Source: a bacterium
Lineage (GTDB): Bacteria; Campylobacterota; Campylobacteria; Campylobacterales; Sulfurimonadaceae
Reading direction: 5' to 3'
Assembly (NCBI GenBank): GCA_018822665.1
Contig: JAHJJX010000027.1
Location: 248,001-312,000 of the forward strand
DNA length: 64,000 nucleotides
Each line of letters begins with the position of its first letter. The stretch's first letter is position 1. The notes below the pieces were generated by a model. That model did no database searches. It was not told the origin of the DNA and was given only the letters and a program-made list of their open reading frames with translations. Below, in pieces: positions 9,371-56,346 of this stretch. A program made the position numbers and the translations under genes.

Positions 9371-9372
9371 AT

Positions 9373-10113: not shown

Positions 10114-10122
10114 GAAATTAAA

Positions 10123-10749
10123 ATGAAATTAAATAATTCAAAATTAAGTGTTCACAGCCTGCTTCTTGCTTCTAGCTTTTTACTTTATGTTTCCATTACA
10201 GGATGCAGTGACGATAATGGCGCGAACAAAGAGAGTTCTTTACCAAAAGAGCAAACGACTCCAAAGATTGAAGTTGTTAAAAATGAAAATGCAAAAGAGA
10301 TAAAAGTAAAAGCTAAAGAGACTGATGCCAATCAAAGTAAATCCTATTATTATGACTACAATATAAAAAGTGAATATAACGTAAATTCTCAACCGGCCAA
10401 TGAAGATGCTGCGGTGAGAGTGAAGCCAAGAAGCAGCATAGATGCAAATATGCATGTAAGAAGTCCTTACGAAAAAATACAAGTATCCTTACTCGTAAAT
10501 AAACTAAGTAAAGAATTTATCGTCAAATGTTCCGCTTGTCACAATGACTATGCAAATGGGATCATTGGACCTTCTCTTCTTTCCAAAGACGCTGATTATA
10601 TTTTTGATAAAATTGAACAATATAAAAATGGTAAAAAAGAAAATGTACTCATGAATGATCTCGTTAAAATGATGAGCAAAGAAGAAATTCGAAAATTAGC
10701 TGATGAAATATATGAATTCAACAAACAAATAAACACTCTAAGGAAATAA
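10123..10749 (+). CDS. nosC1: Monohaem cytochrome c lipoprotein NosC1
   Basis: The N-terminus has a hydrophobic signal and a lipobox ending SITGC, so the protein should be lipid-anchored on the periplasmic side. A charged, low-complexity linker of about 110 residues follows. A small cytochrome c domain then carries CSACH. In clade II clusters two small cytochromes, C1 and C2, lie between nosG and nosH and are proposed to connect the menaquinol side to NosZ. It shares the segment KNGKKENVLMNDL with a similar stretch in the next gene, which suggests duplication. The spacing to nosC2 is 1 base. Confidence 0.88.
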   Translation: MKLNNSKLSVHSLLLASSFLLYVSITGCSDDNGANKESSLPKEQTTPKIEVVKNENAKEIKVKAKETDANQSKSYYYDYNIKSEYNVNSQPANEDAAVRVKPRSSIDANMHVRSPYEKIQVSLLVNKLSKEFIVKCSACHNDYANGIIGPSLLSKDADYIFDKIEQYKNGKKENVLMNDLVKMMSKEEIRKLADEIYEFNKQINTLRK

Positions 10750-10750
10750 A

Positions 10751-11257
10751 ATGAAAAATATAATTGTAGCTTTTTTTACACTGCTTGTCCTTGCACTCAT
10801 GGCCTGGACAGCTTCGGGTGGCCGTGCTTATCATGGTGGTGAACATGCAAAAGTCATTGAAGATTTTGGCGATACTATGACAAACGCAGCCTCAACAACA
10901 AAACCTGAAGAAAAATCAGACAGAGAAAAAGAAAATGAAGCACTCGGTGCGCTAAGAGATAAAGCAGGCAATGCCGGGGCTTTTAAAGTAAGCCAAGAAT
11001 ATAAAAGCAAATGTGCCTCTTGTCACGGTGTAAACGGTTCTGGTGAACAAAATGGCAAAAAGCTCATGGGACCTAAACTCTTTGGACAAAGCAGTGAAGC
11101 AATTTATAAAAATTTAGTAGACTTTAAAGATGGCAGAAAAGAAAATATGATTATGAAAGGTCTCCTGATTCAGCTTAATGAAGATGATTTAAAAAGATTT
11201 TCCGATGAAATTGGAGAGTTTCCAGACAGAGCCAAAGAGATACAAGAAAATAACTAA
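10751..11257 (+). CDS. nosC2: Monohaem cytochrome c NosC2
   Basis: A 168-residue cytochrome c with an uncleaved or cleaved N-terminal hydrophobic helix (about 3-20) and a polar linker. One haem motif, CASCHG, is followed by MGPKLFGQ. The C-terminal helix region (FKDGRKENMIMKGLL) resembles the equivalent part of NosC1, and its methionine is a plausible sixth ligand. It is probably an electron carrier between NosGH or the bc1 complex and NosZ. Confidence 0.88.
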   Translation: MKNIIVAFFTLLVLALMAWTASGGRAYHGGEHAKVIEDFGDTMTNAASTTKPEEKSDREKENEALGALRDKAGNAGAFKVSQEYKSKCASCHGVNGSGEQNGKKLMGPKLFGQSSEAIYKNLVDFKDGRKENMIMKGLLIQLNEDDLKRFSDEIGEFPDRAKEIQENN

Positions 11258-11280
11258 AACTCAAGGAAACGGGATTTAAA

Positions 11281-12186
11281 ATGGATAAGTATAACAATAG
11301 AGAAACTATAGAAAAAACAACATTTTGGTCAACATTCTTCGATACAACAAGAGAAGGGAAATCAAAATTCAGCTACAGAATGAAGAGATGGATTTTAGTT
11401 ATATCTATTCATCTTCTATTTTTCCTGTCATTTTTTATAGATTTGCAGATGTTAGAAGGCACTCTTAACGGTTCCAGATTTTTGGGATTTCATTTGATTG
11501 ATCCTTTTACCACGCTTGAGGTTTTTTTAGCAACTTTCCACATGCCAATCAATATAGTGATTGGCACGCTCACCATAGTAGTTATCTATCTACTCGTTGG
11601 AGGACGAACGTATTGTGCTTGGGTATGTCCTTATGGAATTCTCAGTGAAATAGGTGAAAAACTGCATAATACTTTGGTAGCAAAAAAAATAATCAAAAGC
11701 AGAAAATTCGACCATAGAGTGAGACATTTCTTTTGGGCGATTTTCTTAATTCTATCTTTTACAAGCGGTTACTTAGTCTTTGAGACTTTTAATGTAGTCG
11801 GTATTTTAAGCAGAATGATTGCTTATGGCTGGAGTGTCGCTTTTATTTGGGTGCTAAGTGTCTTTTTAATTGAAGTATTTTACTCCCGTCGCGCATGGTG
11901 TACATATATCTGCCCTATAGGAACGACGTATGGCTATCTTGGAAAAATAAGTGCCTTAAGAATTGAGTGGAATGACAACTGTGACCACTGTATGGTATGC
12001 CATGATGTATGTTTTGAAAATCAAGTTCTAGAGATTGTAAAAGCGAAGTACGATAAGCAAAGGGAAGAAAAAGGGATTACCAAAGAGTATATTACGGGAA
12101 ATGACTGTACTCTCTGCGGTAGATGTATAGATGTTTGTCATACAGATGCTCTCAACTTCGACTTTAGACTAAAAAGTTTGGTATAA
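11281..12186 (+). CDS. nosH: Membrane polyferredoxin NosH (NapH-like)
   Basis: An inner-membrane iron-sulfur protein expected to oxidise menaquinol and pass electrons to NosG. It has about four to five transmembrane helices. The CxxxCP motifs typical of NapH/NosR/RdxA proteins are present (CAWVCPYG and CTYICPIG). Two C-terminal [4Fe-4S] motifs follow, CDHCMVCHDVC and CTLCGRCIDVC. The 301-residue length fits NapH. The stop is 3 bases before nosF. Confidence 0.92.
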   Translation: MDKYNNRETIEKTTFWSTFFDTTREGKSKFSYRMKRWILVISIHLLFFLSFFIDLQMLEGTLNGSRFLGFHLIDPFTTLEVFLATFHMPINIVIGTLTIVVIYLLVGGRTYCAWVCPYGILSEIGEKLHNTLVAKKIIKSRKFDHRVRHFFWAIFLILSFTSGYLVFETFNVVGILSRMIAYGWSVAFIWVLSVFLIEVFYSRRAWCTYICPIGTTYGYLGKISALRIEWNDNCDHCMVCHDVCFENQVLEIVKAKYDKQREEKGITKEYITGNDCTLCGRCIDVCHTDALNFDFRLKSLV

Positions 12187-12189
12187 AAC

Positions 12190-12828
12190 ATGATAAAAGT
12201 ATCACAGTTAACAAAAAAATTTGGTTCTCATCTATCATTAGACAACGTAAGTTGTGAATTTAAAAAAAATGAGTCTATAGCTTTAATGGGTGCGAATGGT
12301 GCCGGAAAAACGACACTCATACGTTCAATACTTGGATATTACCATCCAAATTACGGTGAAGTGCTTATCAATGGATTAAACCCTGTTAAAGAGCGTGTGA
12401 AAGTTTTAGAGAGCATCAGTTTTGTTCCCCAGCTGCCGCCTCCAATAAAATTAAACCTTGATGAGCTGATGCAGTACATCAGCATAAGTGCAAAAGTTGA
12501 TAAAGATTTAATTATGCATTATGCTAACGAGATGAAGCTTGATGTAAAAGAAAACCTTTATAAATCATTTTTCAAACTCAGCGGGGGAATGAAACAAAAA
12601 ATGCTTATTGCTATCAGTTTGGCAAAAAACAGCAGTATCATTATTTATGATGAGCCGACGGCAAATCTTGACCCTAAGGCACGCGATGATTTTTACAGAT
12701 TGTTAAAGCAAAATGAGGATGAAAAAATACTTCTGTTTGTGACGCATAGACTTGAAGAAGTAAAAGACTTAGTCAATAGACAAATTTATATGGATCTTGG
12801 AAAAGTGGTCTCGGATGAAAGATTATAA
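12190..12828 (+). CDS. nosF: ABC transporter ATPase NosF
   Basis: A 212-residue cytoplasmic ATPase that powers NosY in maturation of the NosZ copper centre. The Walker A GANGAGKTT is near residues 34-42, followed by the signature LSGGMKQKM, Walker B IIIYDEPTANLDP and a switch histidine in THRLEE. The C-terminus overlaps the start of the next gene by 14 bases, so the two are probably translationally coupled. Confidence 0.95.
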   Translation: MIKVSQLTKKFGSHLSLDNVSCEFKKNESIALMGANGAGKTTLIRSILGYYHPNYGEVLINGLNPVKERVKVLESISFVPQLPPPIKLNLDELMQYISISAKVDKDLIMHYANEMKLDVKENLYKSFFKLSGGMKQKMLIAISLAKNSSIIIYDEPTANLDPKARDDFYRLLKQNEDEKILLFVTHRLEEVKDLVNRQIYMDLGKVVSDERL

Positions 12829-13282
12829 ATATTTTTTCTTTATTTGCAGTTTTACACTGCTAATATTTTTAAGTGCCTGTAACTCTTCGAATGCTTCAGT
12901 GCAAAGCAGTAAAGAAGATTTAAAAATCTGTCCTCAGTGTCATATGGAAGTAACACATACAAACCTTCATACCGCCATTCTTAAGCAGGATAATCGTCTG
13001 CACTATTTTGATGATGTAGGATGTATGGTGATATGGCTGAGTAAAAATAATATTGATATCGAAGAAGTCACTATAAAAGTCTTTTCAAACGACACCAATA
13101 AATATGTAGAAGCCTCAGGTGCTTACTATAAAATAAACGAAAAAACTCCAATGTTATATGGATTTTCTGCGTATGAAAATTATCAAGAAAACTCCATACC
13201 TTTAAATGAGGTAATACTTAAAATGCTCAGAGGTGAGCATATGGCAAATCCAAAAATCAGAAAACAGATACTTGGGTATTAA
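12815..13282 (+). CDS. nosL: NosL-family lipoprotein (first copy)
   Basis: NosL proteins are outer-face Cu(I)-binding lipoproteins that supply copper for NosZ. The start is the ATG at 12815, inside the end of nosF. A hydrophobic signal and a lipobox (FLSAC) come first, then the NosL core: CPQCHME, a pair of beta strands, YFDDVGCMVIWL, and a C-terminal YGFSAYEN segment. The CxxC...M set could bind Cu(I). It sits between nosF and nosY, interrupting the FY pair, which is unusual. Confidence 0.85.
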   Translation: MKDYKYFFFICSFTLLIFLSACNSSNASVQSSKEDLKICPQCHMEVTHTNLHTAILKQDNRLHYFDDVGCMVIWLSKNNIDIEEVTIKVFSNDTNKYVEASGAYYKINEKTPMLYGFSAYENYQENSIPLNEVILKMLRGEHMANPKIRKQILGY

Positions 13283-14601: not shown

Positions 14602-15126
14602 ATGTCTAAACCTGCACCAATAAACGAAGAAATAAAGCTCGACCCAAAAAGATATATAGTAAGTGAAACGGATGAGAAAGGTAAAATCACCTATTGCAAT
14701 GACTATTTTATAGAAGTTTGCGGCTATTCAAAAGAAGAATTAATCGGCAAACCACATAGTATTATTCGTCATCCTGATATGCCAAAAGTTGTATTTAAAC
14801 TCTTATGGCAGACTATTTCTCAAGGGAAAAATATTAATGCGGTTGTAAAAAATCTAGCAAAAGATGGAAGATACTACTGGATATTTACCGAATTTGAATC
14901 CAGAACGGATACAGATACAGGAAAGATAATCGGTTATACAGCTTCAAGAAAATCAATCTCCAAACATGTGATAGAAATAATTGCCGACTTATATGCAAAA
15001 CTTTTAGAGATAGAGAAAAATCAAAGCGTTGAAGCGAGTGAAAAATTTCTTATTGATTTTTTAAAAGAAAAAGGTGATGATATCGAGTTTAAAGATATCA
15101 TGGAAGAGATTCATAAATTTTACTAA
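14602..15126 (+). CDS. PAS-domain protein (Aer-like)
   Basis: A 174-residue soluble protein with one PAS domain (about 15-130) and a short helical tail. The motif GKPHSIIRHPDMPKVVF and the aromatic KDGRYYWIFTEFE strand match the Aer/energy-taxis PAS type, which commonly binds FAD. No output domain is present. It starts 1 base after the nosL-like gene, so it appears to be the last gene of the nos operon. It closely resembles the PAS protein at 51587-52015 in the chemosensory operon. A redox signal passed to a receptor array is possible but unproven. Confidence 0.85.
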   Translation: MSKPAPINEEIKLDPKRYIVSETDEKGKITYCNDYFIEVCGYSKEELIGKPHSIIRHPDMPKVVFKLLWQTISQGKNINAVVKNLAKDGRYYWIFTEFESRTDTDTGKIIGYTASRKSISKHVIEIIADLYAKLLEIEKNQSVEASEKFLIDFLKEKGDDIEFKDIMEEIHKFY

Positions 15127-43668: not shown

Positions 43669-43696
43669 TTGCATTGTGATTATTTTGTGATATAAT
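43669..43696 (+). promoter_or_regulatory. Sigma-70-type promoter of the chemosensory operon
   Basis: TTGCAT (43669-43674) and TATAAT (43691-43696) are separated by 16 bases. The -10 is preceded by TGTGA (extended-like). It drives the plus-strand chemosensory operon that starts at 43730. No sigma-28 signal is seen, which separates this system from the flagellar regulon. Confidence 0.6.
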
Positions 43697-43729: not shown

Positions 43730-44749
43730 ATGGGCAATAGTCAAAAAGAAATACTGGCAAATATCTTAGAACATCAACACTCCTTAATACTTGATAGTTG
43801 GAAAGAGAAAGAACTTGTTCAATCTCTTTTGCTCCAAAGAGATATACACCCTGATTTTTTTATTACCCACTTTGGCTCGCGTGTTCTAGATTATTTTATT
43901 AGCGTTTTGCGTAGCAAAAACGCTCCTGGGCAATGTCCTGTCATATCCGTCATGCTTCACTTCTTTCAAAGACGCGGCATCAAGCTTGATGAAGTCTTTC
44001 ATATATGCTCCGGAATGCGCAATACGATTGTCGATATTCTTCTTGAACTCGGCATCAAACACTCGGATGAAACGTATCAGATAACTATAGAGTTGTTTGA
44101 ATTAAACTTTGCGGGTGTCATCAGAGAGTATATAGAAGTCACCTGCCCCAACAAAGCAAAAAACAAAAAAATCAGCGCCCAAAAAGCACCTGTCGTATGC
44201 TCAGCCGGCACTTCCAAAACAGAGTTCGTCCCTCAAATAAAAACCCCGGTTAAAAATGAAGTTCTTCAAGAATATTTCGCCAAAGATACGGATGACGGCG
44301 TTACAAAGGTTCTCTTTATGTCTGATGACGCAGATGACATGATGGAGTATTTTGCGGAAGTACCGGAGCTGCTCTCGCAGGCAATCATCGACTCTGACAT
44401 GACAAAAATTGCAGATGTGGCCAAAATATTTGCCAAAACAGGCTCTATTCTCCTGCGCTATTCACCTTATCTCGACTCGCTCGCACTCAGTATGCAAGAA
44501 CTCTCAGCAGCATTGCATGAGCATCCAGCTCAGTTTATGGAGGTTTTGGCTGAGAACGGCGATGACATGCTCAAGCTTTTTGACGCGGTGAGCATAGATA
44601 TGGACCGTTATATTCAGCGCTTTAGTGTTGAAAACATTGCCATGAAAAACGCACACCATATTCATGAACCGACCACTTTAAGCATTTTGCAAATCATCTC
44701 CATGTTTGTCCCGCAAGAGTTTGAAGAGGGTGAAATAGAGTTTTTTTAA
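43730..44749 (+). CDS. Unknown protein, first gene of the chemosensory operon
   Basis: A 339-residue soluble protein. The N-terminal part (about 1-140) is all-helical and resembles RsbRD- or globin-like sensor folds (SVMLHFFQRRGIKLDEVFHICSGMRNTIVDILLELG), but I cannot name it. A linker with KKISAQKAP leads to a C-terminal helical domain (about 180-339) with HEAT-like or histidine-containing pattern. The first position and clear promoter suggest it is an input or scaffold protein of the array. Confidence 0.65.
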   Translation: MGNSQKEILANILEHQHSLILDSWKEKELVQSLLLQRDIHPDFFITHFGSRVLDYFISVLRSKNAPGQCPVISVMLHFFQRRGIKLDEVFHICSGMRNTIVDILLELGIKHSDETYQITIELFELNFAGVIREYIEVTCPNKAKNKKISAQKAPVVCSAGTSKTEFVPQIKTPVKNEVLQEYFAKDTDDGVTKVLFMSDDADDMMEYFAEVPELLSQAIIDSDMTKIADVAKIFAKTGSILLRYSPYLDSLALSMQELSAALHEHPAQFMEVLAENGDDMLKLFDAVSIDMDRYIQRFSVENIAMKNAHHIHEPTTLSILQIISMFVPQEFEEGEIEFF

Positions 44750-44776
44750 ACCAAGGTTATTGAGAAGGAAAGAGTT

Positions 44777-45400
44777 ATGGCAATATTAAAAACACATACA
44801 AAACAGACGCTCGAAGCGTATCCGATTTTTTCGACGCTCGAAGAGGCTATAGATTTTTTTAACTCAAATACAGAGTTTGAAAAAAAATCTTACGCCATCT
44901 GCAATATCGCCAAATTTAAAGGAGGCATGGACTTCCTTATCAGCGCTCTCGCAAACGAAACCACTAACAAAGAGATCTCTACGGTTATAGCAACTACAAT
45001 CTCAAATGCAGATCCGCAAGATGTGCCCATAGAAGCACTTATGAATTTACTAAAATTGAAAAATGCGTACATCAGGAACCTTGCTATGTCTACACTGAGT
45101 TATTTTGGCACTGCCATGAAAGAGCATTTATTCACTTTTCTCAAAGGAAACGATTCGAACTTGAGAATATACGCCATCAATATTTTGGGCGATGTTAATT
45201 TCCCCGAATCCAGAAAGATGTTGACCCAGCTTTTGCAAAAAGAAGAAAACCTCAATGTCTCCATGACGGCTGTTGATTACTTAAGAGAGATTGGAGAGCT
45301 GGAGGATATTCCTCTTTTGGAATCCTTGAAAAAAAGATTTTCCGGCGATGTCTATGCAGAGTTTGCACTCCAGCAAGCCATTGACTCGATTAAAGGCTAA
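44777..45400 (+). CDS. HEAT-repeat protein of the chemosensory operon
   Basis: A 207-residue soluble protein built of alpha-hairpins: at least four HEAT-like repeats from about 50 to 200 (for example LMNLLKLKNAYIRNLAMSTLSYFG and LRIYAINILGDVNFPESRKMLTQLL). HEAT scaffolds bind partner proteins. It lies 27 bases after the first gene and 5 bases before cheR. HEAT-repeat proteins are also found in chemosensory operons of other bacteria, but this one has no known role. Confidence 0.8.
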   Translation: MAILKTHTKQTLEAYPIFSTLEEAIDFFNSNTEFEKKSYAICNIAKFKGGMDFLISALANETTNKEISTVIATTISNADPQDVPIEALMNLLKLKNAYIRNLAMSTLSYFGTAMKEHLFTFLKGNDSNLRIYAINILGDVNFPESRKMLTQLLQKEENLNVSMTAVDYLREIGELEDIPLLESLKKRFSGDVYAEFALQQAIDSIKG

Positions 45401-45405
45401 ATAAG

Positions 45406-46236
45406 ATGTCTCATCTTTTATCAAATGAAAATTTTTCCAAAGTAAGCGAATTTATTTACAGAAAGAGCGGGATTTTTCTTGCCGAAGACAAACATTTTAA
45501 AAAACTGGCAAAATACATCGACGCTCATGCAAAAAATTTTGGTTACGACAGTTTTAGAAAATATTTTTACAAGCTGCGTTTTGATGACAAAGAGGGGAGA
45601 GAATTTCAGAATCTCATGAACGCCATGACCATCAACGAAACCTACTTTTTTAGAGAAAATGACCAGTTTGAAGTTTTAGCCAACAAAGTTATACCCGAAC
45701 TTCACGAAACTATGCAAAGCTCAAGACCTATAAGAATTTTATCTTCACCCTGCTCTAGCGGAGAAGAGGCCTACTCCATCGTATTGCACATACTAGAAGA
45801 AGCTCAAGTTGTTGCGAAACGAGACATCGAAGTAGTGGGTATCGACATTAATTCCACGGTGATAGAAAAAGGCAAAAGAGCCCTCTACAACGAAAGATCG
45901 GTGCATGCCATTCCAAAAAATATTTTGATGAAATGGTTTAAAAAAAACACCTTGGGATATGAGCTAATAGAAGATTTGCACGGAACCGTCGATTTTAAAA
46001 TCGTCAACGTTTTTGATAGTGTCCAAATGAGAAAACTAGGGAAGTTCGATGTCATCTTTTCAAGAAATATGCTCATATATTTTGATGACGCATCCCGAAA
46101 AAAAGTTGCCATGACCTTTTATGATATGCTCAATACAGGTGGCTATATCTTTTTGGGACATGCCGAATATATGAGTCGTATCGTTTCGGTTTTTAACGCA
46201 AAAAAAATAGACTCGACTTTAATTTATCAAAAATAG
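45406..46236 (+). CDS. cheR: Chemotaxis methyltransferase CheR
   Basis: Methylates glutamates of chemoreceptors with S-adenosylmethionine. The N-terminal helical domain (1-75) precedes the methyltransferase domain with ILSSPCSSGEEAYSIVLHILEE, the NETYFFRE motif and FDVIFSRNMLIYFD. At 276 residues it is normal length. It pairs with cheB at the end of the operon, so receptor methylation is expected to operate here. Confidence 0.95.
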   Translation: MSHLLSNENFSKVSEFIYRKSGIFLAEDKHFKKLAKYIDAHAKNFGYDSFRKYFYKLRFDDKEGREFQNLMNAMTINETYFFRENDQFEVLANKVIPELHETMQSSRPIRILSSPCSSGEEAYSIVLHILEEAQVVAKRDIEVVGIDINSTVIEKGKRALYNERSVHAIPKNILMKWFKKNTLGYELIEDLHGTVDFKIVNVFDSVQMRKLGKFDVIFSRNMLIYFDDASRKKVAMTFYDMLNTGGYIFLGHAEYMSRIVSVFNAKKIDSTLIYQK

Positions 46237-46249
46237 GAGAAATAAAAAA

Positions 46250-46624
46250 ATGCCTTTAGTAATATTTATAGATGACAGTGAAACCGCCTTGGCCTCAACA
46301 AGAATGGCTACGGCCTCAATGCCGATTGATGTCAAACAGTACACGGAAGCTCAGGTCGCTTTAGCCGACATTCAAGCGGGGATGATTCCGGATTTGGTCA
46401 TTACGGATCTCAATATGCCTGTTATGAACGGTTTTGAGTTTTTACAAGAGTTTAGAGCAAATCCTGCTACAAAAAGAACCCCGTGTCTGATGCTCACAAC
46501 AGAAGCAAGAGACGAGCTCAAACAACAAGGAAAAGCACTGGGTCTCACAGGCTGGATAGTCAAACCCTTTAGCCCGACTCAGCTTAAACAGGCTATTGCC
46601 AGAGTATTGCGACTGCCTGCATAG
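46250..46624 (+). CDS. CheY-like response regulator (first)
   Basis: A 124-residue single receiver domain with the acidic pair IDDSE, the phospho-acceptor aspartate in VITDLNMPVMNGFEF, the threonine in MLTTEAR and the lysine in IVKPFSPTQL. No output domain. It is likely an adaptation or output regulator for the CheA encoded downstream. Confidence 0.92.
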   Translation: MPLVIFIDDSETALASTRMATASMPIDVKQYTEAQVALADIQAGMIPDLVITDLNMPVMNGFEFLQEFRANPATKRTPCLMLTTEARDELKQQGKALGLTGWIVKPFSPTQLKQAIARVLRLPA

Positions 46625-46659
46625 GCAAGATAAAATTTTAATCTTTTAGGAGGTCTCTT

Positions 46660-47025
46660 ATGAAGAGTGTTATGGTCGTTGATGATTCAAAAACAGTAAG
46701 AAATTATCACAGCTCCATACTCAGAGCGATGGAGTTCAATGTTTTAGAAGCTGCCAATGGGATGGAAGCCTTAGAGAAAAGTCTCGAATTCACTGTTGAC
46801 CTCTATGTGATTGATGTCAATATGCCCGTTATGGATGGCTACTCTCTCATTGTAAACCTCCGAAAACAGCCTCAGAACAAGCTTGTTCCCATTGTTATGG
46901 TAACAACACAAGGAAGCGAGGAAGATAAAATTTCATCCTACAAAACCGGTGCGAATTTTTTTGAAACCAAACCAATTAAACCAGAGAAGCTCCAAGCATA
47001 CGCTACGCTTCTGCTTCTAAGTTAA
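46660..47025 (+). CDS. CheY-like response regulator (second)
   Basis: A 121-residue receiver domain with VVDDSKTVRNY, phospho-acceptor VIDVNMPVMDGYS, MVTTQGS and the conserved lysine in ETKPIKPEKL. It follows the first by 35 bases and precedes cheA by 11. Two regulators may serve as output and phosphate sink. Confidence 0.92.
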   Translation: MKSVMVVDDSKTVRNYHSSILRAMEFNVLEAANGMEALEKSLEFTVDLYVIDVNMPVMDGYSLIVNLRKQPQNKLVPIVMVTTQGSEEDKISSYKTGANFFETKPIKPEKLQAYATLLLLS

Positions 47026-47036
47026 GGGGAGAGAGT

Positions 47037-49721
47037 ATGGACTCATTATTAGATCAGTTTCTGCAAGAGGCGAGGGAAAACTTAGCGTTTATAGAGCAAA
47101 ACATCGATAAGATAGGTTCAAGCGACCCCGAACTGCTCAACTCTATTTTTCGTGCTGCACATACGCTAAAAGGCGGAAGCGGCATCGTCGGATTTGAATC
47201 TCTCAAAGAGATCACGCACCATGCCGAAGATCTGCTGGATATGCTCAGATCAGGACAAATAGAGTTTAAAGAGAGCATGAGAGAGGTTCTCTATGATGCT
47301 TTTGATGAAGTCATGAACCTTGTTGAAGCAGCCGAAGAGAGCGGAGAAATAGTAGTAGCCGATGAAGAGACTGTAGAGAGACTCATAAAAAATCTCAATG
47401 ATGAAATGGGCAAAACACTCGAATGCAAAACAGCATGGAGTCTTCCTTTTACCGAAGTCTCTGATGTACAAAACCTCATCAATATCCCTCTCTCTTTTTT
47501 AAGAGGCGTGCAAACGCAAAAAATCTTGTTTAAAAACCCTCCGATTGATGAGGAGTTTTGCTCTCATGAGCATCTCTACGCCATCCTTTTCGACATAGAC
47601 GAATCATGCATGGTTTATGGAAACGACCCTCTCTATGCCCTCTCTTTACTCTGTGACAAGGTTTTGGGCATTTATAGCTGCATGAGCGATGAGAATGCCA
47701 AATCGGTTTTAAGCGGCACAGAAGATGAAGAAGGCTTACTGCTGCGAGTGCGTATAGTTGCCTATGTCTATGCGACTTATGAAGAGATAGAAGATTCACT
47801 CTTTAACTTTATAGACGAACTCCAATTTTTGCCTCTTGATGTTGCCGCCCTCCTCTCTCTAAGTGTCGGTGAGGGCCATCACAAACTAGAACTCCTAAAA
47901 GAGCTCTCTGCCCTTGGCAAAACAAATGACATTGCTGCGATGGTCGCCAAGGTTGAAAAATCTCTCGAACTCATCGGCAAAGAGACGCTCCAATACGCCC
48001 AGCTTCAAAGATTTTTAGATATTGCAGGGCTCATTGATGGGCGCGACACCTCGAAGCTGGCACCTTTCTTTGCCGAGCTTTACAAGGGCGAACTCTACAC
48101 TTACGAAGAAGTTTTCCAAGAAGATACCGCTCATGATGCGCAAGCCCAGAATCTACATGAGCAAGAGCCTCCGATGAAAATGGATGCAGCTTTTCTTGGC
48201 GCTTTGGAAGATATGCTTCATCAACAATATAAATCGCTCAAACATATTGATGATGAAGGCTTTAAAAGAACCCTGCATGTCATGCAAAAGATACGAAAAT
48301 TCATCCCTCAAATACCTGAAAATATTAGCTCCAAAGATAAGCTCTCTGCGTTTTTAGAGTCTTATCTGCAGCTCTCGTCTCAAGCGCAACAAAACATTGC
48401 AATAACACAAACGCAAAAAGAGACAAAAGAGGATAGTAAAGAAGAAGTCAAGGAGGTGCTCTCCCAAGAATTCCCAAGCGTAAAAGAGCAGACCAAAAAA
48501 GAGGATGCCGCAAAATCCGTCGTAGGCAAAACGGTAAAAATCGAACAGAAATCCATTGACTCGCTTATGAATGTAGTCGGGGAACTTTTAGTCGCCAAAA
48601 ACTCTCTGCCTTATCTTGCCGATAATGTGAACAACATGAGCCATGAGATAATAAAACGCGAGATTATGGAGAAGTACATCTTTATCAACCGTCTATCCGA
48701 GCAGCTTCAGGACCTTATCATGAGTATGCGTATGCTCCCTATCTCCTATGTTTTTGACAGATACCCAAAACTTGTCCGTGACATCTCCAAAAAGCTTGAA
48801 AAAAAAGTGAATCTTGAGATGGAGGGCGGCGACACCAAACTCGACAAAAACATGATAGAGATGCTCGCAGATCCTATGATACACATCATGAGAAACTCGC
48901 TTGACCATGGCATCGAAACGCCTGATGCAAGGGAGAAAAAAGGCAAAAATCCTATGGGAACAGTAAAGCTGCAGGCCTATGCGGAGTCGGATAGAATCGT
49001 TATAGAGATTATTGATGATGGTGCCGGCATCGATGTTGAAAAACTTGCAAACAAAGTCCTCACAAAAGGCTTGCTGACACATGAGCAGATAGACGCTCTG
49101 AGCGAAGATGAGATGGCTGAGCTCGTTCTTTTGCCGGGACTCTCGACGGTCGATACCATCAGCGAGTTTAGCGGCCGCGGCGTGGGTATGGATGTCGTTA
49201 AAAAATCCATTGAAGGTTTTGGCGGCAATATAAAAATCAAAACAAGAAAAAATATGGGAACGACCATTACCCTCTCCATCCCTGTTTCTCTGGCAGTCAC
49301 TTCGCTCTTGCACATTCAAATGAACGGCATCAATTACGGTATCCCTATGGATAGCGTCTCTGAGACCGTAAAACTCGAAAGAGAAGAGATCAAATATATG
49401 CATAATGAACCTTTTGTATATATCAGAGGCGATGTTATTCCTCTGCTCTTCATCAAGTCTATGTTTAATGAGCAGAGCAGCAAAAATGAGCAGCTTTCAA
49501 TAGTCATCCTCAATATAAAAAACAATCTTTTAGCGCTTGTCGTCAATAAATTTATAGGCCAATTAGATGTAGTACAAAAACCTCTTTCAGGTATTTTTGA
49601 GCACCATCCAATCTTTACGGGAACGGCGCTTTTAGGTAATGGAGAGATAATTATGGCGCTTGATCCGCTTGGGCTGCTTAGGATCTCCCAAAAGCTCAAA
49701 CAAGATATCAAAATAGCATAA
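47037..49721 (+). CDS. cheA: Chemotaxis histidine kinase CheA
   Basis: An 894-residue kinase. The N-terminal Hpt domain has its phosphorylated histidine at H42 (RAAHTLKGGSGIVGF). A long region (about 110-490) with little recognisable homology follows, much longer than the usual P2. The dimerisation helices begin near 505 (VGKTVKIEQKSIDSLMNVVGELLVAK). The ATPase domain has HIMRNSLDHGIETPDARE (N box) and IDDGAGID and GRGVGMDVVK. The C-terminal CheW-like domain (about 750-890) binds receptors and CheW. There is no receiver domain. Confidence 0.95.
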   Translation: MDSLLDQFLQEARENLAFIEQNIDKIGSSDPELLNSIFRAAHTLKGGSGIVGFESLKEITHHAEDLLDMLRSGQIEFKESMREVLYDAFDEVMNLVEAAEESGEIVVADEETVERLIKNLNDEMGKTLECKTAWSLPFTEVSDVQNLINIPLSFLRGVQTQKILFKNPPIDEEFCSHEHLYAILFDIDESCMVYGNDPLYALSLLCDKVLGIYSCMSDENAKSVLSGTEDEEGLLLRVRIVAYVYATYEEIEDSLFNFIDELQFLPLDVAALLSLSVGEGHHKLELLKELSALGKTNDIAAMVAKVEKSLELIGKETLQYAQLQRFLDIAGLIDGRDTSKLAPFFAELYKGELYTYEEVFQEDTAHDAQAQNLHEQEPPMKMDAAFLGALEDMLHQQYKSLKHIDDEGFKRTLHVMQKIRKFIPQIPENISSKDKLSAFLESYLQLSSQAQQNIAITQTQKETKEDSKEEVKEVLSQEFPSVKEQTKKEDAAKSVVGKTVKIEQKSIDSLMNVVGELLVAKNSLPYLADNVNNMSHEIIKREIMEKYIFINRLSEQLQDLIMSMRMLPISYVFDRYPKLVRDISKKLEKKVNLEMEGGDTKLDKNMIEMLADPMIHIMRNSLDHGIETPDAREKKGKNPMGTVKLQAYAESDRIVIEIIDDGAGIDVEKLANKVLTKGLLTHEQIDALSEDEMAELVLLPGLSTVDTISEFSGRGVGMDVVKKSIEGFGGNIKIKTRKNMGTTITLSIPVSLAVTSLLHIQMNGINYGIPMDSVSETVKLEREEIKYMHNEPFVYIRGDVIPLLFIKSMFNEQSSKNEQLSIVILNIKNNLLALVVNKFIGQLDVVQKPLSGIFEHHPIFTGTALLGNGEIIMALDPLGLLRISQKLKQDIKIA

Positions 49722-49734
49722 AGGAGGTACTGTT

Positions 49735-50511
49735 ATGGATTTAATTGTTTTTCAAGTTGCCGGCAGCCGTTACGCTCTTGAGATAGAAAATATACAAAGA
49801 ATTATTCAAGCGACGCAACTCACGACTGTGCCTAATGCCCCTGAAATAATAGACGGTATGTTTAACTATGAAAACAACATTATCAAAGTCGTCAGTTTTC
49901 GCAAACTTATAGGCCTTCGAGCTTACGAGATGCAACTGCGCGACTTTTTTATAAAACAACAGACAGAGTATCGGCATTTTATGGATACACTCAAAGATTC
50001 TCTGGAGCGCGGGGCGGCTTTTAACAGAGCGCTTAACCCGCACAAATGCGAACTTGGCATATGGCTCAAAAACTTTAACTCTTACGATGAAGGGCTCTCT
50101 AAAATCCTCAAGAATCTTCTTGAAGATTTTAGACGTTTGTATGCCTTGGCGAGTGATGCACTAGAGCTCTCTAAAAGCGATGCAAACGCGGCGCTAGAGC
50201 TTTTTAACTTAGAGATACAAAAGGTTTTTCATCAAATGATTCAAGAGATAAACCTCTGTATAGAAAAACTTGAAACAGCCGCGAATTCTTTGCAAAAGAT
50301 GATTATCTACCGGCAGGAGAGTGCACGATTTGCCATCAAAGTGGATGCCATAGAAGATATAGTGCACGCCGAGGAAGAACAGATTATGCGCTCAGATGAA
50401 AACGACAGCAAAGAACTTCAGCTCTATGGGGTTTTAGATGTCGGAGGCAACTTGGTCAACATCATTAAAAATATAAACATAGCTTCCAAAGGAGAACTCC
50501 ATGGCAATTGA
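49735..50511 (+). CDS. CheW with inserted CZB-type domain
   Basis: The 258-residue protein begins with a CheW-like strand set (about 1-65: MDLIVFQVAGSRYALEIENIQRII and MFNYENNIIKVVSFRKLIGL). Helical residues of about 66-190 interrupt it, and the second CheW half (about 190-250: ARFAIKVDAIEDIV) follows. The insert has the chemoreceptor zinc-binding pattern with H81 and C105 in NPHKCELGIWL. The usual pair of late histidines is not clear: that stretch reads FRRLYAL. H103 or H166 might substitute. It adapts CheA to receptors and may sense zinc or oxidants directly. Confidence 0.88.
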   Translation: MDLIVFQVAGSRYALEIENIQRIIQATQLTTVPNAPEIIDGMFNYENNIIKVVSFRKLIGLRAYEMQLRDFFIKQQTEYRHFMDTLKDSLERGAAFNRALNPHKCELGIWLKNFNSYDEGLSKILKNLLEDFRRLYALASDALELSKSDANAALELFNLEIQKVFHQMIQEINLCIEKLETAANSLQKMIIYRQESARFAIKVDAIEDIVHAEEEQIMRSDENDSKELQLYGVLDVGGNLVNIIKNINIASKGELHGN

Positions 50512-50770
50512 GTATACAGAGAATATAAGCATCTTTACTGCGATTATTTACGAAGATGAACTTGTAGCATTGAGAGATTTTTTGCAAGAAAAAGCTCCTG
50601 CTCCACTGACCTTTAATTTTACAGAGTGCGAGGATATCCATCTCGCGGTTTTACAACTCATTCTCGCATACAAAAAAAATTATGACTGCCGTTATGAGTT
50701 CGGCGATGAGACAAAAATATACGCAAAAGTTTTAAAAGGGTTTGATACAAGTGAAAACTATTGTAATTAG
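50501..50770 (+). CDS. Small STAS-like protein of the chemosensory operon
   Basis: An 89-residue protein whose pattern (FTAIIYEDELVALRDFLQEKAPAPLTFNFTECEDIHLAVLQLILAYKK) resembles a shortened STAS/MlaB-type fold. The start overlaps the preceding gene by 11 bases and the stop overlaps the ParA gene. It could interact with the array proteins; the assignment is tentative. Confidence 0.65.
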   Translation: MAIEYTENISIFTAIIYEDELVALRDFLQEKAPAPLTFNFTECEDIHLAVLQLILAYKKNYDCRYEFGDETKIYAKVLKGFDTSENYCN

Positions 50771-51512
50771 CAACCGCAAGGGCGGCTCTGCCAAAACCAC
50801 TACGGCTGTCAATATAGCCAGCGGTTTAGCAAAACACAGCTCGGTATTGCTTTTGGATTTTGACACGCAGGGTCATGCCTCTATAGGTGTTGGTTGCGAT
50901 TTGAGCGAAGAGCTTGGCGTGCACTCCATTTTTAGCGGAAAAACGTTGAGTGAGACTTTTATACCAACGGTTCATAAAAATCTCACACTCTCGCCTGCGC
51001 TTGTCTTTTTTGATGTGTATGAGTACGCTGATCTCAGAGGTGTCTTAAAAAACAGATTTAAGATGGAAAGTATCACTGAGTTTTTTGACTACTGCGTCAT
51101 AGATACACCGCCGACTTTTGATGCGCTGCTCAAAAACTCTTTGGAAGTGGCTGATAGCGTCGTCATCCCTTTTGTGCCGCATCATTTGGGAGTCGTAGCG
51201 GTCGGTCAAATGCTTCGCGCCCTCTATCAGAGTGCTACACTTTTAGAACGCAAAGTGGCTGAAGTTTACATTCTTCCCGTGATGTATAACCCGCATATCC
51301 CTGAACATAAAGAGTGCGTTGAAAAAGTGAAGAAATCCTTTGGCGAAGCAAAAATGCTCTCTCCAATCGGCATAGATATCAAACTCTCGCAACAGTTTGA
51401 GTCAGGAATACCCATCATTTTAGATGAAAAACGTTCCAGAGGCCTGCAAGACTATAAAAGATGCGTCGAAGAACTCTTGGAAAGATTTCAGGGGGCTGAG
51501 ATGTATGGGTAA
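50751..51512 (+). CDS. ParA-family ATPase of the chemosensory operon
   Basis: A 253-residue deviant Walker A ATPase (SNRKGGSAKTTTAVN) with VLLLDFDTQGHASI and DYCVIDTPPTF motifs. I choose the GTG at 50751 over a TTG at 50742 because AAAGGG lies about 10 bases upstream and the protein then begins KTIVISNRKGG. ParA-like proteins position chemosensory clusters (ParC in Vibrio) or cargo such as plasmids. Lying between array genes, it probably partitions this array at cell division. Confidence 0.88.
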   Translation: MKTIVISNRKGGSAKTTTAVNIASGLAKHSSVLLLDFDTQGHASIGVGCDLSEELGVHSIFSGKTLSETFIPTVHKNLTLSPALVFFDVYEYADLRGVLKNRFKMESITEFFDYCVIDTPPTFDALLKNSLEVADSVVIPFVPHHLGVVAVGQMLRALYQSATLLERKVAEVYILPVMYNPHIPEHKECVEKVKKSFGEAKMLSPIGIDIKLSQQFESGIPIILDEKRSRGLQDYKRCVEELLERFQGAEMYG

Positions 51513-51600
51513 AGCAATAAGCGGCAATAGCCTGAACAAACGCAGAGTGATGAATACAAACAACTTAAATTTACGGAGGCTTGAAAATGACAAAGAGTAA
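51505..51600 (+). CDS. Possible overlapping 31-residue ORF
   Basis: ATG 51505 overlaps the ParA stop codon (ATGGGTAA) and opens a 31-codon frame reading MGKAISGNSLNKRRV at its start, ending at 51600. The coupling overlap is suggestive, but the length is short and the frame ends inside the next gene. It may be spurious or a small ParA partner peptide. No homology is claimed. Confidence 0.3.
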   Translation: MGKAISGNSLNKRRVMNTNNLNLRRLENDKE

Positions 51601-52015
51601 CAACAATATCAGTACAGAGGGACTGACATTTTTAGAAGACGGTGAGGTCCTTTTTGACGATTTATACCTGCTGTCTGAGACGGATGAAAAGGGAATAGTC
51701 GAATATGCAAGCGACTCTTTTTTAAAAATAGCCAACCTCAGAGAGGATGAACTCATCGGCCAGCCGCACAATGTCGTGCGCCATCCGGATATGCCGCGCG
51801 CGGCTTTCAAATCGCTTTGGGACGATGTCAGGCAAAAAGGATTTTGGACGGGTTATGTAAAAAATTCCCGTAAAGGCGGAGGTTTTTACTGGGTGTATGC
51901 AACCGTTCTGCGCTCAGTCGATAAAAATGGAAAGACAAAATATGTCTCTATCAGGGTCAAGCCTTCGCGAGAAGATATTAAAAAAGCCCAACAGCTTTAT
52001 GCAACATTAGTTTAG
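51587..52015 (+). CDS. PAS-domain protein of the chemosensory operon (Aer-like)
   Basis: A 142-residue PAS protein with GQPHNVVRHPDMPRAAFKSLW and the strand GGGFYWVYATVLRSVD, as in energy-taxis PAS domains that bind FAD. It starts at ATG 51587 after GGAGG. It has no membrane or signalling part and lies directly before the soluble receptor, so it probably supplies the sensory domain to it in trans. It resembles the PAS protein at the end of the nos operon (14602-15126). Confidence 0.9.
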   Translation: MTKSNNNISTEGLTFLEDGEVLFDDLYLLSETDEKGIVEYASDSFLKIANLREDELIGQPHNVVRHPDMPRAAFKSLWDDVRQKGFWTGYVKNSRKGGGFYWVYATVLRSVDKNGKTKYVSIRVKPSREDIKKAQQLYATLV

Positions 52016-52033
52016 TGTTAAAAGGAATATATC

Positions 52034-53920
52034 ATGCCATTAATCAATAAAAACACTCCAGCAATATCTGCACCGACGGTAGCATCAAGCGGGGACAAAC
52101 GCAGACAACGGACCTTAGCAAAACAACAGCAAATCAGTGAAAGCATAGCCGGCGTCGCTATGACAATCCTTGAAAACGCACAAGAGAGCGTCAGTGCCAT
52201 TGAAGAGTTAAAATCATCCATGGAGCAAATCGCCACGGCTGCCGAGGAAAACAGCGGAGCGAGCGAGCAAGCGCTTTTGAACGTCAACAGCATCAGTTCC
52301 AATATTACAAGAATGAACGCGAGTATAGATACCGTAATCTCCTCAACTTTGACTGCGGGTGAAAACATCATGTCCTCCGTCGGCAAGATCAACGATTCCG
52401 TTTCAAGAATGGACATGGCGGTCAGCGTCGCACAAGCCTCTTCTACAAAAAGTGAAGAGCTCAAAGTATCTTCGCAAAACATCGGCGATGCCGTCGGTTT
52501 CATCGCAAAAATTGCCGATCAGACAAATCTTCTTGCCTTAAATGCAGCCATAGAAGCAAGCCGTGCCAAAGAGCACGGCAAAGGCTTTGCGGTAGTAGCG
52601 GATGAGACACGAGCTCTTGCAGGAGAGAGTGAGAAAAACGCAGAGTTTATCTCTGAACTTGTAAACAAAATACAAGGAAGCATAGACAACATCATCAAAA
52701 GTATCGGCGCGACTACCAGCATCATCTCAGGTAACGGGAGCAAGGGCAATGCACTGAGTCTAAAGATGGAAGAGCTGACAAAAATAGCCGTCTACTCCGT
52801 TGAAGCGGCAAGAAGCGTTAATACGTACACAAAAAAACTTGGGGATTTTGTCGAAAAAATCAACGTCGGTTCCAAAGACATCGCCAAAGCCTCCATTGAA
52901 ATCGCGCAGTCTGTCGAAAAAACACTCAACGGCATAGAAGTTCAGTCTGATGCCCTCGCCCAAACAGAAGACGACATCAAAGAACTTTCCTCTTTGGCAG
53001 AAGAGCTCAAATACTCAACCGACAGCATAAAATCAGCCGAAGACATTGCCCTCTCGGCAGATACTATCAGCGGTTCCATGGAAGATATCCAAGCTGCGCT
53101 CGAAGATGTCACAAACGCGCTCAATCAGATTGAAACATCCTCACATGCGACAAATAAAAGCGCCCTCAACAACAAAGAGATGATAGTCACGGGCACAGAA
53201 ACCGCAAAAGACATAGACAAGCTCATAGAAATAGCCCGCCGAAATTTTGACCTGCTCAAAGTCTCTTTTAACATCGTGAAAAACAGCGTCGCGGAGATTC
53301 GCGACTCTTTTAGCGAGTCTATCTCTAAAGGCAACGGCGCGGCATCGGAACTCAACGTCATCGTCAAAGAGACAAAAAATGTTGACAAAACGGTGGGCAA
53401 TATCTCAAAGTCCATCGTTCAACTCAATATGCTCGCAATCAGCGGCTCAATCGAAGCGGCGCGTGCGGGAGATTTCGGGAAAGGCTTTGCCGTCGTAAGT
53501 TCTGACATTCGAAACTTGGCCAAAGATTCTGAATCCAATACGGAAAAAATCAATGATATCGTAGAGTCCATGAACTCGGAAATAGACACAGTCAAAACGG
53601 ACTGGAACAATCTCTTAACTTCTCAGGGACATGAGCAAAAAAGCATAAATACACTCATCAACGACATCACCAAAATCATAGATATGCTCGTTGACCTGCT
53701 CGACAGATATACGGGTCTCAAAACCATAAATAACCAAAATCTAGAAGGCATGAATCAGGTCATGATTGGAATCAACGAGATTCAAAAAGCCATAGAACTG
53801 AGTGCGAGAAACGCAATGGAATCCCGCAAAGCAAGCGAACTGATAATCGAGACGGTTTCTCACATCAGCAGCGGCGTGGAAGAGCTCGCGGTTATGGCAG
53901 ACGAACTCCAACAAGGCTAA
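52034..53920 (+). CDS. Soluble chemoreceptor with two signalling tips
   Basis: A 628-residue, fully cytoplasmic methyl-accepting protein with no transmembrane helix and no ligand domain. The first hairpin tip is at about 156-195 (IADQTNLLALNAAIEASRAKEHGKGFAVVADE). A second, diverged tip is at about 455-500 (SKSIVQLNMLAISGSIEAARAGDFGKGFAVVSSDI). Both keep the E-A...GxGFAVV pattern. The long coiled-coil arms are full of Glu/Gln-Ser/Ala steps where methylation could occur. It probably receives its signal from the PAS protein encoded just upstream. Confidence 0.9.
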   Translation: MPLINKNTPAISAPTVASSGDKRRQRTLAKQQQISESIAGVAMTILENAQESVSAIEELKSSMEQIATAAEENSGASEQALLNVNSISSNITRMNASIDTVISSTLTAGENIMSSVGKINDSVSRMDMAVSVAQASSTKSEELKVSSQNIGDAVGFIAKIADQTNLLALNAAIEASRAKEHGKGFAVVADETRALAGESEKNAEFISELVNKIQGSIDNIIKSIGATTSIISGNGSKGNALSLKMEELTKIAVYSVEAARSVNTYTKKLGDFVEKINVGSKDIAKASIEIAQSVEKTLNGIEVQSDALAQTEDDIKELSSLAEELKYSTDSIKSAEDIALSADTISGSMEDIQAALEDVTNALNQIETSSHATNKSALNNKEMIVTGTETAKDIDKLIEIARRNFDLLKVSFNIVKNSVAEIRDSFSESISKGNGAASELNVIVKETKNVDKTVGNISKSIVQLNMLAISGSIEAARAGDFGKGFAVVSSDIRNLAKDSESNTEKINDIVESMNSEIDTVKTDWNNLLTSQGHEQKSINTLINDITKIIDMLVDLLDRYTGLKTINNQNLEGMNQVMIGINEIQKAIELSARNAMESRKASELIIETVSHISSGVEELAVMADELQQG

Positions 53921-53923
53921 ACT

Positions 53924-55288
53924 ATGCAGATCCAGGAGATTATAATCATTAACAACGGCGCCCAGAGCTACGGCATATCAACCCAATTCATCAATCAGGT
54001 TTCCAGAGTGCCCGCTCTTATGCCCCTTCCTCTGAGACCTTTTGGTGTTCGGGGACTCTGTTCTGTGGGCGGAAATATAGTAAGCATTGTTGATATGAAT
54101 CTTTTGCTGGATATGAATGCGGTCGAATATGACGCTCCTTCAAGCAGATTGGTGAGCTTTAACGGTGTCTATGCCTCGCATGCGTTTTTGGTTAATCAAG
54201 TCGATAATATAGTCGAAGTCAATCAAAAAGATACGGAGTATCTCGACAACAACGATGAACTTCTCGCCGTTTACAAATACGAAGATTCCCTAATACAAAT
54301 TGTATCTCTGGATTTTTTACTCTCAAAAATCAAAAAGGTCGCCATTACGTCCAAAGAGATAAAAAAAGGAAAGTCCGAGACAAAAATATCTCTCGAAGAA
54401 AAGAGCAGCAGATTTTTAATCTTTGCAATGGCCAATGAAAGATTCGCCCTCAATATTGACTATTTGCGCGAAATCATTATGGCGGATGTTTCTTTTACAG
54501 AAATAACAGGAAGTTCTTCTGAAATTTTGGGGCTGATCAATCTCAGAAATGAGCTTATCACCGTTCTTGATTTACAGACTTATTACGGTTTTGAACATAC
54601 ACTCAGCTATAAAAACCGCATCCTAATCGTCTCCCACGGGGATAAGACCATAGGTCTTTTAGTTGATGGCATAATAGATATCAAAAACATTCTGGCCAAA
54701 AATATAGAGTATATGTCAGAGAATTTTGAAGACGAAAAGATTAGCGGAGTCATCCATGACGGAAAAAATCTCATCTCATTTTTTGACGCAACGGTTTTAG
54801 ACAAACTCTTTGCTAAAAATAGGAAGTTTATAGATGCCAAAGCTTCCATATACGCAATGGACAAATCTGCGGACATCGCTTTGGAGGTCATTATCTTTGA
54901 GCTGGCAAACAAAGAGTATGCATTCAAAATTGAGAATGTAGCCGAGATTATCGACATAGTTAAGCCCACAGAGATAGCTTATACAAACAAATTTATTGAC
55001 GGCATTATCAATATCAGAGGACAAATTATCACTATTTTTTCTTTATATAAGAAATTAAACATACCGAAAAATATCCATGAGGGCTGCAAAATCATTATAT
55101 GCAATATCAATGAGACGAAAATAGGTTTTATCGTAGAGAGTGTCAGTGATATTTTAAATATCCATAAAAACGAAATCAGAGAACAAAACGACTCTCTTTT
55201 TACCAATGTTTTACATCTTGAGGACGGTAAAAGGCTGGTGCTTTGTATGGATATCGATGAAATCCTCTCCATAAAAGGCCAAGCATGA
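53924..55288 (+). CDS. Triple CheW-domain coupling protein
   Basis: A 454-residue protein of three CheW-like domains in series (about 1-140, 160-300 and 310-454). The repeated pattern is a strand set around ILGLINLRNELITVLDL and IDGIINIRGQIITIFSL. Multi-CheW scaffolds are known in some large chemosensory systems. It follows the receptor gene by 3 bases and overlaps cheB by 4, so the genes are made together. Confidence 0.92.
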   Translation: MQIQEIIIINNGAQSYGISTQFINQVSRVPALMPLPLRPFGVRGLCSVGGNIVSIVDMNLLLDMNAVEYDAPSSRLVSFNGVYASHAFLVNQVDNIVEVNQKDTEYLDNNDELLAVYKYEDSLIQIVSLDFLLSKIKKVAITSKEIKKGKSETKISLEEKSSRFLIFAMANERFALNIDYLREIIMADVSFTEITGSSSEILGLINLRNELITVLDLQTYYGFEHTLSYKNRILIVSHGDKTIGLLVDGIIDIKNILAKNIEYMSENFEDEKISGVIHDGKNLISFFDATVLDKLFAKNRKFIDAKASIYAMDKSADIALEVIIFELANKEYAFKIENVAEIIDIVKPTEIAYTNKFIDGIINIRGQIITIFSLYKKLNIPKNIHEGCKIIICNINETKIGFIVESVSDILNIHKNEIREQNDSLFTNVLHLEDGKRLVLCMDIDEILSIKGQA

Positions 55289-56346
55289 GCAAAAAAATTC
55301 TCATCGTTGATGATTCCGCTTTAGTGAGAAAACAGCTGGGCGAGATCATTGCTATGCTGGATTTTGATATAGAGACGGCAAAAAATGGCCAAGAAGCGGT
55401 CAATAAAGCAACGGCGACTCAGTATGATGTCATAACGATGGATATCAATATGCCCGTCATGGACGGCCTTGAAGCGCTCAAGCAGATCATGCAAAAACAA
55501 CCCACCCCTATTTTGATGGTAAGTTCACTCACCACAGAAGATGCCAACACTACAATGGATGCTCTTGATTTGGGTGCTGTTGACTATATATCCAAACCTG
55601 GAACTATGAACATCGGAAAAAAAGAAAATCAGGAAGATATCTTAGAAAAGGTCAAATCCCTCAGCACCATCTCGCCAAGAAGTCTCAAAAGAAGACTCTC
55701 AAGAGCTCCGACAAGGGTAAGAAATGAGCCTCGGATTAGTGAAAAAAGCTCTCTTCCTCTTACAAGTAAAGAGATAAGCAAAGTACTTCTTATAGGGGCT
55801 TCAACGGGAGGTCCTGGACTTATAGAACAAATCTGCGCCGCCCTGCCTGCGGATTACAAATATCCTGTTTGTATAGTCCAACACATGCCCGCACAATTTA
55901 CCAAAGCTTTTGCTGCAAGAGTAAACCGTTCAAGTATGCTCAAGGTGCAAGAGAGTGCCCACAATATGGAACTCTTGCCCAGAAATATCTACATCGCCCG
56001 CGGCGGCGTTCATATGGGATTTTCCAAAAAGGTATCGGGCAAAATTGTCATAAGAGAGAACAAAGACAAAGGAGAACATTTTTTTCAGCCGAGTGTTGAT
56101 GAGATGTTTTTAAGCGCTTTGGAACTCTTTGAACCTTCCAATCTTATCGGGGTTCTTTTGACAGGCATCGGTGATGACGGTGCCGAGGGAATGGTCAAAC
56201 TCAAACAGGCAGGCGCCTACACCTTGGGAGAGAGTGAAAAAACAGCCGTTGTCTACGGCATGCCCAAAGAAGCTTATGAGAGAGGCGGAGTGAGTGAGCA
56301 GTTAGACTTTATGCAGATATTAAAAAAAATTACCGCATTAAAATAA
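55285..56346 (+). CDS. cheB: Chemotaxis protein-glutamate methylesterase CheB
   Basis: A 353-residue enzyme with a receiver domain (VDDSALVRK, VITMDINMPVMDG) and a methylesterase domain. The catalytic serine is in LIGASTGGPG, the histidine in QHMPAQF and the aspartate in TGIGDDGAEGM. It removes methyl groups placed by CheR. It is the last gene of the operon. Confidence 0.95.
   Translation: MSKKILIVDDSALVRKQLGEIIAMLDFDIETAKNGQEAVNKATATQYDVITMDINMPVMDGLEALKQIMQKQPTPILMVSSLTTEDANTTMDALDLGAVDYISKPGTMNIGKKENQEDILEKVKSLSTISPRSLKRRLSRAPTRVRNEPRISEKSSLPLTSKEISKVLLIGASTGGPGLIEQICAALPADYKYPVCIVQHMPAQFTKAFAARVNRSSMLKVQESAHNMELLPRNIYIARGGVHMGFSKKVSGKIVIRENKDKGEHFFQPSVDEMFLSALELFEPSNLIGVLLTGIGDDGAEGMVKLKQAGAYTLGESEKTAVVYGMPKEAYERGGVSEQLDFMQILKKITALK

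Follow-up and report, generated by a model that had tools for sequence, protein, structure and literature searches.

Closest described systems

According to PMC9321776, the signature of class F9 chemosensory systems is a receptor with two signalling domains (DosM) associated with a triple CheW protein (CheW3). Vibrio cholerae che cluster I (DosM VC1403, CheW3 VC1402, CheA VC1397) belongs to this class: its DosM spans two CheA/CheW3 baseplates and needs another receptor or sensor, and F9 arrays are seen when cells starve or when oxygen is low (PMC7534058, PMC3964821 and PMC9321776 for class definition and array structure), while deletion of its F9 CheA has no detectable phenotype (PMC7534058). 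Nearly all DosM proteins are devoid of sensory domains. In the Campylobacterota, the text of the 2022 study of complete genomes reports partial F9 sets only, in Nitratiruptor and Nautilia, whose clusters contain dosM, cheW3, cheB and cheR but lack cheA and cheY (PMC9321776). Here, we describe an operon at positions 43730-56346 of a window of 64,000 nucleotides (contig JAHJJX010000027.1, positions 248,001 to 312,000) from a 2.5 Mb Sulfurimonadaceae genome, the closest named relatives of which are mostly Sulfurimonas. This operon shares these four genes with the Nitratiruptor and Nautilia clusters, and its set is complete. It very probably encodes a class F9 system, which would assemble a membrane-free, double-layered array with a PAS-derived redox input, ParA positioning and a non-flagellar output.

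The window operon and V. cholerae che cluster I have in common the DosM with two signalling domains, the triple CheW, CheA, CheB, CheR and two stand-alone CheY, as well as a core without membrane receptor. Unlike the V. cholerae cluster, which also encodes other methyl-accepting chemotaxis proteins (MCPs), the window adds an Aer-type PAS protein, a CheW with an inserted CZB domain (CheW-CZB), a ParA ATPase and the first gene product, hereafter P1. The plasmid cluster of Methylobacterium currus TP-3 (NZ_CP089297), ordered DosM-CheW3-CheB-HEAT-CheR-RR-CheA-STAS-ParA-RR (RR, response regulator), follows the window core and has a CheA of similar length, but possesses a second MCP, is devoid of PAS, CheW-CZB and P1, and is unpermuted. 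The CheOp3 system of Rhodobacter sphaeroides (PpfA, TlpT) likewise combines a cytoplasmic array with a ParA-type positioning ATPase; it acts on the motor and, to our knowledge, contains neither DosM nor CheW3. It differs by a CheA split into CheA3 and CheA4 and by a curved array, which PpfA positions via the N-terminus of TlpT (PMC3964821). A ParA gene has been reported in a che operon of 77 out of 206 species (PMC2829493). Lastly, Campylobacter jejuni CetA/CetB likewise has a stand-alone Aer-like PAS protein that serves a separate receptor, but this energy-taxis receptor, CetA, is integral to the membrane (PMC2628428).

Assignment to class F9

The class is decided by the receptor, since it has two signalling domains. 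The first-pass annotation rightly called this protein soluble but overlooked that it has two such domains, and could not match the operon to a characterised system; DosM and CheW3, together with a core order found in proteobacterial F9 clusters, provide that match. The window DosM can be aligned with the DosM of six plasmid clusters, over its whole length in the case of the closest one, and the spacing between its two hairpin tips, exactly 300 residues, is that of all six. The window further contains the full set, with its own CheA, CheR, CheB and CheY. The order DosM, CheW3, CheB, HEAT, CheR, RR, CheA and small protein is that of the plasmid F9 clusters of Methylobacterium currus, Sphaerotilus sulfidivorans and two Azospirillum species, with ParA coming next after the small protein in Methylobacterium; the F9 clusters of Agrobacterium vitis and Rhizobium are devoid of HEAT. 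The small protein behind the F9 CheA and the window STAS-like protein belong to the same family as judged by hhalign (97.6% probability, E 4.6e-12), and both families weakly match STAS_2, the relatives falling below the cut-off, which bears out the STAS-like label; the family did not return any useful PDB match. HEAT, STAS and ParA are thus not odd, since the same genes are present in F9 clusters elsewhere.

The very long middle region noted for CheA is present but not exceptional, as the 877-residue Methylobacterium CheA aligns end to end with the 894 residues of the window protein. Pfam reports the dimerisation domain at residues 498-564, followed by HATPase and CheW domains. In an AlphaFold2 (AF2) model, the Hpt domain matches the P1 domain of CheA and precedes a confident alpha/beta domain, whereas a fold search with the middle region, dominated by the Hpt domain, returned no match beyond CheA P1-P2. 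In a CheA tree, the window protein joins the six plasmid F9 CheA at 100/99, the outside set being the CheA of the genome's own F3-type and third che loci and those of E. coli, Pseudomonas and Phaeobacter, several of them on long branches.

A chemosensory class unlike any described would account for P1, PAS and CheW-CZB, none of which occurs in the plasmid F9 clusters that were inspected, and for the arrangement of RR1 and RR2, the two stand-alone receivers, around a CheZ-motif gene, which is specific to the phylum. Both signature proteins and 10 out of 13 genes, however, have F9-cluster counterparts, mostly in the same order, and CheA groups with F9, so that a novel class is scarcely credible. 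As far as genes and proteins can be read, the operon is a phylum-specific variant of class F9 and not a new class; its gene content, F9 membership and conservation are firm at that level.

Distribution and gene order in the phylum

At a threshold of E 1e-40, CheW3 is present in 8 out of 397 good Campylobacterota genomes. When 84,980 species genomes were scanned for the window DosM, a single-protein query that picks up close relatives only, 74 loci were obtained, all in Campylobacterota, mostly Sulfurimonas and Sulfuricurvum (72-93% identity). The gene block is not due to chance, since it recurs in about 74 other loci. Its usual order is PAS, DosM, CheW3, CheB, HEAT, CheR, RR1, a protein of ~130 residues, RR2, CheA, CheW (often with CZB), STAS and ParA, and its usual location is beside rpsO/flhA. 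The PAS gene immediately precedes DosM in 72 out of 72 readable loci, permuted ones included; CheB follows CheW3 (68/68 loci) and CheR follows HEAT (67/67), and the ~130-residue CheZ-motif protein is usually present. Complete F9 systems recur across the Sulfurimonadaceae, where the 2022 complete-genome survey gave only partial sets for the phylum. In the Sulfuricurvum clusters L111, L120, L123 and L124 (our locus numbers), the STAS gene has a copy of CheW-CZB on either side, which suggests a duplication of the adaptor.

Proposed mechanism and candidate input

By homology with V. cholerae, DosM would bridge a pair of facing baseplates composed of CheA and CheW3. Since DosM is devoid of a sensory domain, the input would have to come from its partners. 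The likeliest is the Aer-type PAS protein, whose gene immediately precedes that of DosM. It may report the redox or energy state through flavin adenine dinucleotide (FAD) and signal to DosM in the way that CetB serves CetA. Other candidates are the CheW with its CZB-derived domain and P1 with its predicted globin fold. RR1, RR2 and CheB would be phosphorylated by CheA, with CheR and CheB adapting DosM. ParA, by analogy with PpfA, probably positions and segregates the array. The flagellar motor is not an expected target of RR1 or RR2. The basic N-terminus conserved in DosM was considered as a mark of ParA partnership and rejected, as it is similar in clusters that have no ParA gene. We infer array formation, redox input, ParA function and output from these likenesses, the whole being probably a redox- or energy-sensing cytoplasmic array with a non-flagellar output.

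The PAS protein strongly resembles the PAS structure of E. coli Aer (8dik; PMC9668731). The FAD residues of Aer include R57, H58 and D60 (PMC2628428), and the RHPD motif of the window protein carries their equivalents. Some points weigh against this reading. The exact RHPD motif occurs in only 38 out of 69 PAS orthologues, FAD binding by the PAS protein is predicted with this motif as its basis, and the contact between PAS and DosM is deduced from gene order. Likewise, the F9 comparison set was made of plasmid clusters, the V. cholerae F9 genes, CheA1 included, standing outside the alignment and the tree. What the operon offers, as a real, complete and conserved system by its gene content, is a named and testable candidate input for F9 arrays: in the Sulfurimonas family, an Aer-type FAD PAS protein precedes DosM in every readable locus.

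At 14602-15126, the window encodes a further small PAS protein of the Aer-like type, which contains an IRHPDMP motif. It adjoins genes of the nos type, which form a cluster at 4450-13282 comprising, by reading of the open reading frames (ORFs), nitrous-oxide reductase-like, NosD-like, ferredoxin, cytochrome c and ATP-binding cassette genes.

Alternative sensors and outputs

The main sensor might instead be the CheW-CZB adaptor, which would inform the array of zinc or hypochlorous acid (HOCl), as CZB domains sense either of them (PMC8262984) and the HCHH zinc ligands are found in 45 out of 54 long orthologue rows. In the window copy, however, the ligands read YCFY, with three out of four lost and the 3His/1Cys site gone, so that zinc binding is not expected, and 23 out of 82 collected CheW copies are short and devoid of the domain. 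The CZB label itself fits the relatives clearly (E 5.6e-9) and the window copy only below threshold. CheW-CZB is a very unlikely main sensor.

Regarding the output, a second flagellar taxis pathway, with RR1 or RR2 acting on FliM or modulating F3 signalling, would suit a cluster that adjoins flhA and rpsO in relatives, that usually includes a CheZ-motif protein, and whose class occurs mostly in flagellated species (PMC9321776). Nevertheless, the FliM-contact residues W58/Y106/K119 are absent in both receivers, RR1 having L58/W106/A119 and RR2 V58/F106/Y119; the CheY4 of V. cholerae, which is the top solved match of RR1, fails to bind FliM; and the V. cholerae F9 CheA deletion is silent. We regard such a pathway as improbable. 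Besides, an F3-type cheVAW locus and FliM lie elsewhere in the genome, apart from the operon. Flagellar output by the operon is unlikely, since this separate locus exists, the receivers lack the FliM residues and RR1 resembles the non-binding CheY4. The operon CheA is not the flagella-driving kinase of an only chemotaxis system either, since F3-type cheVAW and FliM are found outside it. The earlier description thus holds in that the chemosensory set is complete, soluble and equipped with its own ParA, and probably has no flagellar role. That no transmembrane receptor is involved is true of the operon, none of its 13 proteins containing a transmembrane-like stretch, but not of the genome, which has 12 further MCP places. 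A third che locus (G000:C4, L060 3340-13967) encodes CheA, a PAS protein, MCP, CheW, a CheV-like protein, CheR and CheB, and is possibly of the F7_Sulfurospirillum type named in PMC9321776.

P1 and the CheZ-motif protein

P1 returned no Pfam match at E 0.01 and no NCBIfam match. Many long proteins of the genus, including histidine kinases, share its N-terminal half at their own N-termini. The AF2 model of this half (pLDDT ~70-94, from an alignment of five sequences) was compared with known structures by VIA-align, which reports as best matches the RsbR N-domain (2bnl, Z 14.2, 126 residues, root-mean-square deviation 2.5) together with two sporulation inhibitors of Bacillus (Z 14.2 and 13.5); helical models sometimes reach such Z values by chance, 2bnl being nevertheless covered almost whole, and Foldseek E-values were 0.04-0.4. 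A globin fold without haem is predicted from this model. The C-terminal domain was also considered as an Hpt-like bundle, on one match (Z 11.3 to the P1 domain of CheA), but the model is of low confidence there and the match was not relied on. Full-length P1 relatives are found in L069, L110 and L111, and P1-like genes lie just upstream of the operon in two Sulfuricurvum-type loci, a third having a kinase-fused version. In other regulators of the genus, the C-terminal domain is fused behind a receiver as an unnamed output domain (L055 4676-5743, L056 5086-6132, L057 13186-14247 and L058 3898-4935), all four proteins ending in (E/D)(I/M)EFF.

In about 65 loci, a helical protein of ~130 residues is encoded between the two CheY-like genes (for example L080 16195-16602). 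Its invariant QDxxxQ and its acidic-IEFF C-terminus resemble the CheZ active-site motif and tail, and it is possibly an unrecognised CheZ-type phosphatase; Pfam and PDB searches gave no CheZ match, and hhalign gives a probability of 0.2%. The permuted copies described below (window, S. crateris and N3_29) are devoid of this gene, and a search of the rest of the window's own genome found none, an empty answer of little weight.

P1 might have replaced the missing protein in this lineage, as the factor that switches off RR1 and RR2, which would add to the F9 reading: the window and S. crateris both have P1 and no CheZ-motif gene, and the two protein families have an acidic-IEFF tail in common. 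However, P1 has no conserved DxxxQ, the CheZ homology of the 130-residue protein is unproven, and L112 has neither gene within reach. L110, L111 and L119 carry both genes, for which a strict swap was rejected; a looser replacement appears rather unlikely. It is doubtful, too, that P1 is a stressosome-type sensor, with an RsbR-like globin fold and a tail docking to response regulators, coupled to the F9 array and regulating its RRs after loss of the CheZ-motif protein. If it were, the array would combine a FAD redox signal with a stress signal.

Gene content of the operon

The operon comprises 13 consecutive plus-strand ORFs with small gaps or none, most of them abutting or overlapping (Table 1). 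The gene set and order given by the first-pass annotation are real, and Pfam agrees with them, reporting HEAT_2, CheR, two receivers, CheA, CheW, ParA, PAS, two MCPsignal stretches, three CheW and CheB. Regarding the sigma-70-type promoter, an extended -10 element, TGATATAAT, is readable, but its -35 is weak, and a consensus scan gave 27 matches against 29.3 in shuffles, no excess, with no plus-strand match at TGATATAAT. An Rfam search of the window returned no match.

Table 1. Features of the class F9 operon in window coordinates
Feature	Coordinates	Strand	Evidence and remarks
Putative promoter, extended -10 element TGATATAAT	43688..43696 (about)	+	Read directly; -35 weak
P1, 339 residues	43730..44749	+	N-terminal half of predicted RsbR-N-like non-haem globin fold; helical C-terminal domain; EIEFF tail
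HEAT-repeat protein	44777..45400	+	PF13646, E 2.2e-14; 30-33% identity to the same-place HEAT protein of F9 clusters
CheR methyltransferase	45406..46236	+	PF01739, E 6.8e-52
RR1, stand-alone receiver, V. cholerae CheY4-like	46250..46624	+	PF00072; top PDB match 4h60/4hnr, 86 bits
RR2, stand-alone receiver, placed as the F9 RR before CheA	46660..47025	+	PF00072; 42-44% identity to plasmid-cluster F9 RR
CheA, 894 residues	47037..49721	+	Hpt 4-92; alpha/beta domain ~135-275; helices ~285-445; kinase core 498-894
CheW with inserted degenerate CZB domain	49735..50511	+	PF01584; PF13682, E 0.013; ligands YCFY instead of HCHH
Small STAS-like protein	50501..50770	+	Profile match to F9 STAS-like family
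ParA/PpfA-like ATPase	50742..51512	+	PF13614, E 7.4e-29; 32% identity to Methylobacterium F9-cluster ParA; TTG start; overlaps STAS gene
Stand-alone Aer-type PAS protein, RHPD FAD motif	51581..52015	+	103 bits, E 1.2e-28 to E. coli Aer PAS 8dik
DosM, soluble receptor, two signalling hairpins	52034..53920	+	Two MCPsignal stretches; tips at residues 172 and 472
CheW3, three CheW domains, 454 residues	53924..55288	+	Three PF01584 stretches; homologues follow DosM in F9 clusters
CheB methylesterase with receiver	55285..56346	+	PF01339, E 2.6e-54

Permuted copies and their origin

As compared with the usual order, the window operon is circularly permuted, the HEAT to ParA segment coming first and the PAS to CheB segment second. 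The same permutation is found in a Sulfurimonas crateris metagenome-assembled genome (MAG; L054/L069) and, incomplete, in MAG N3_29 (L047/L068). It appears to be derived, since the permuted copies are nested inside the F9 clade of the phylum. The usual rpsO/flhA site is intact and empty in the window's own genome (G000:C22, L168 4508-8676). The operon has a GC content of 41.9% versus ~37% in its flanks, and the GC content at third codon positions (GC3) is 0.44-0.52 in three operon genes versus 0.31-0.35 in three flanking genes. A horizontal arrival from a GC-richer relative is suggested by this composition, since the usual site is empty and the GC and GC3 excess has no counterpart in twelve relatives. 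The neighbours of the S. crateris operon differ from those in the window.

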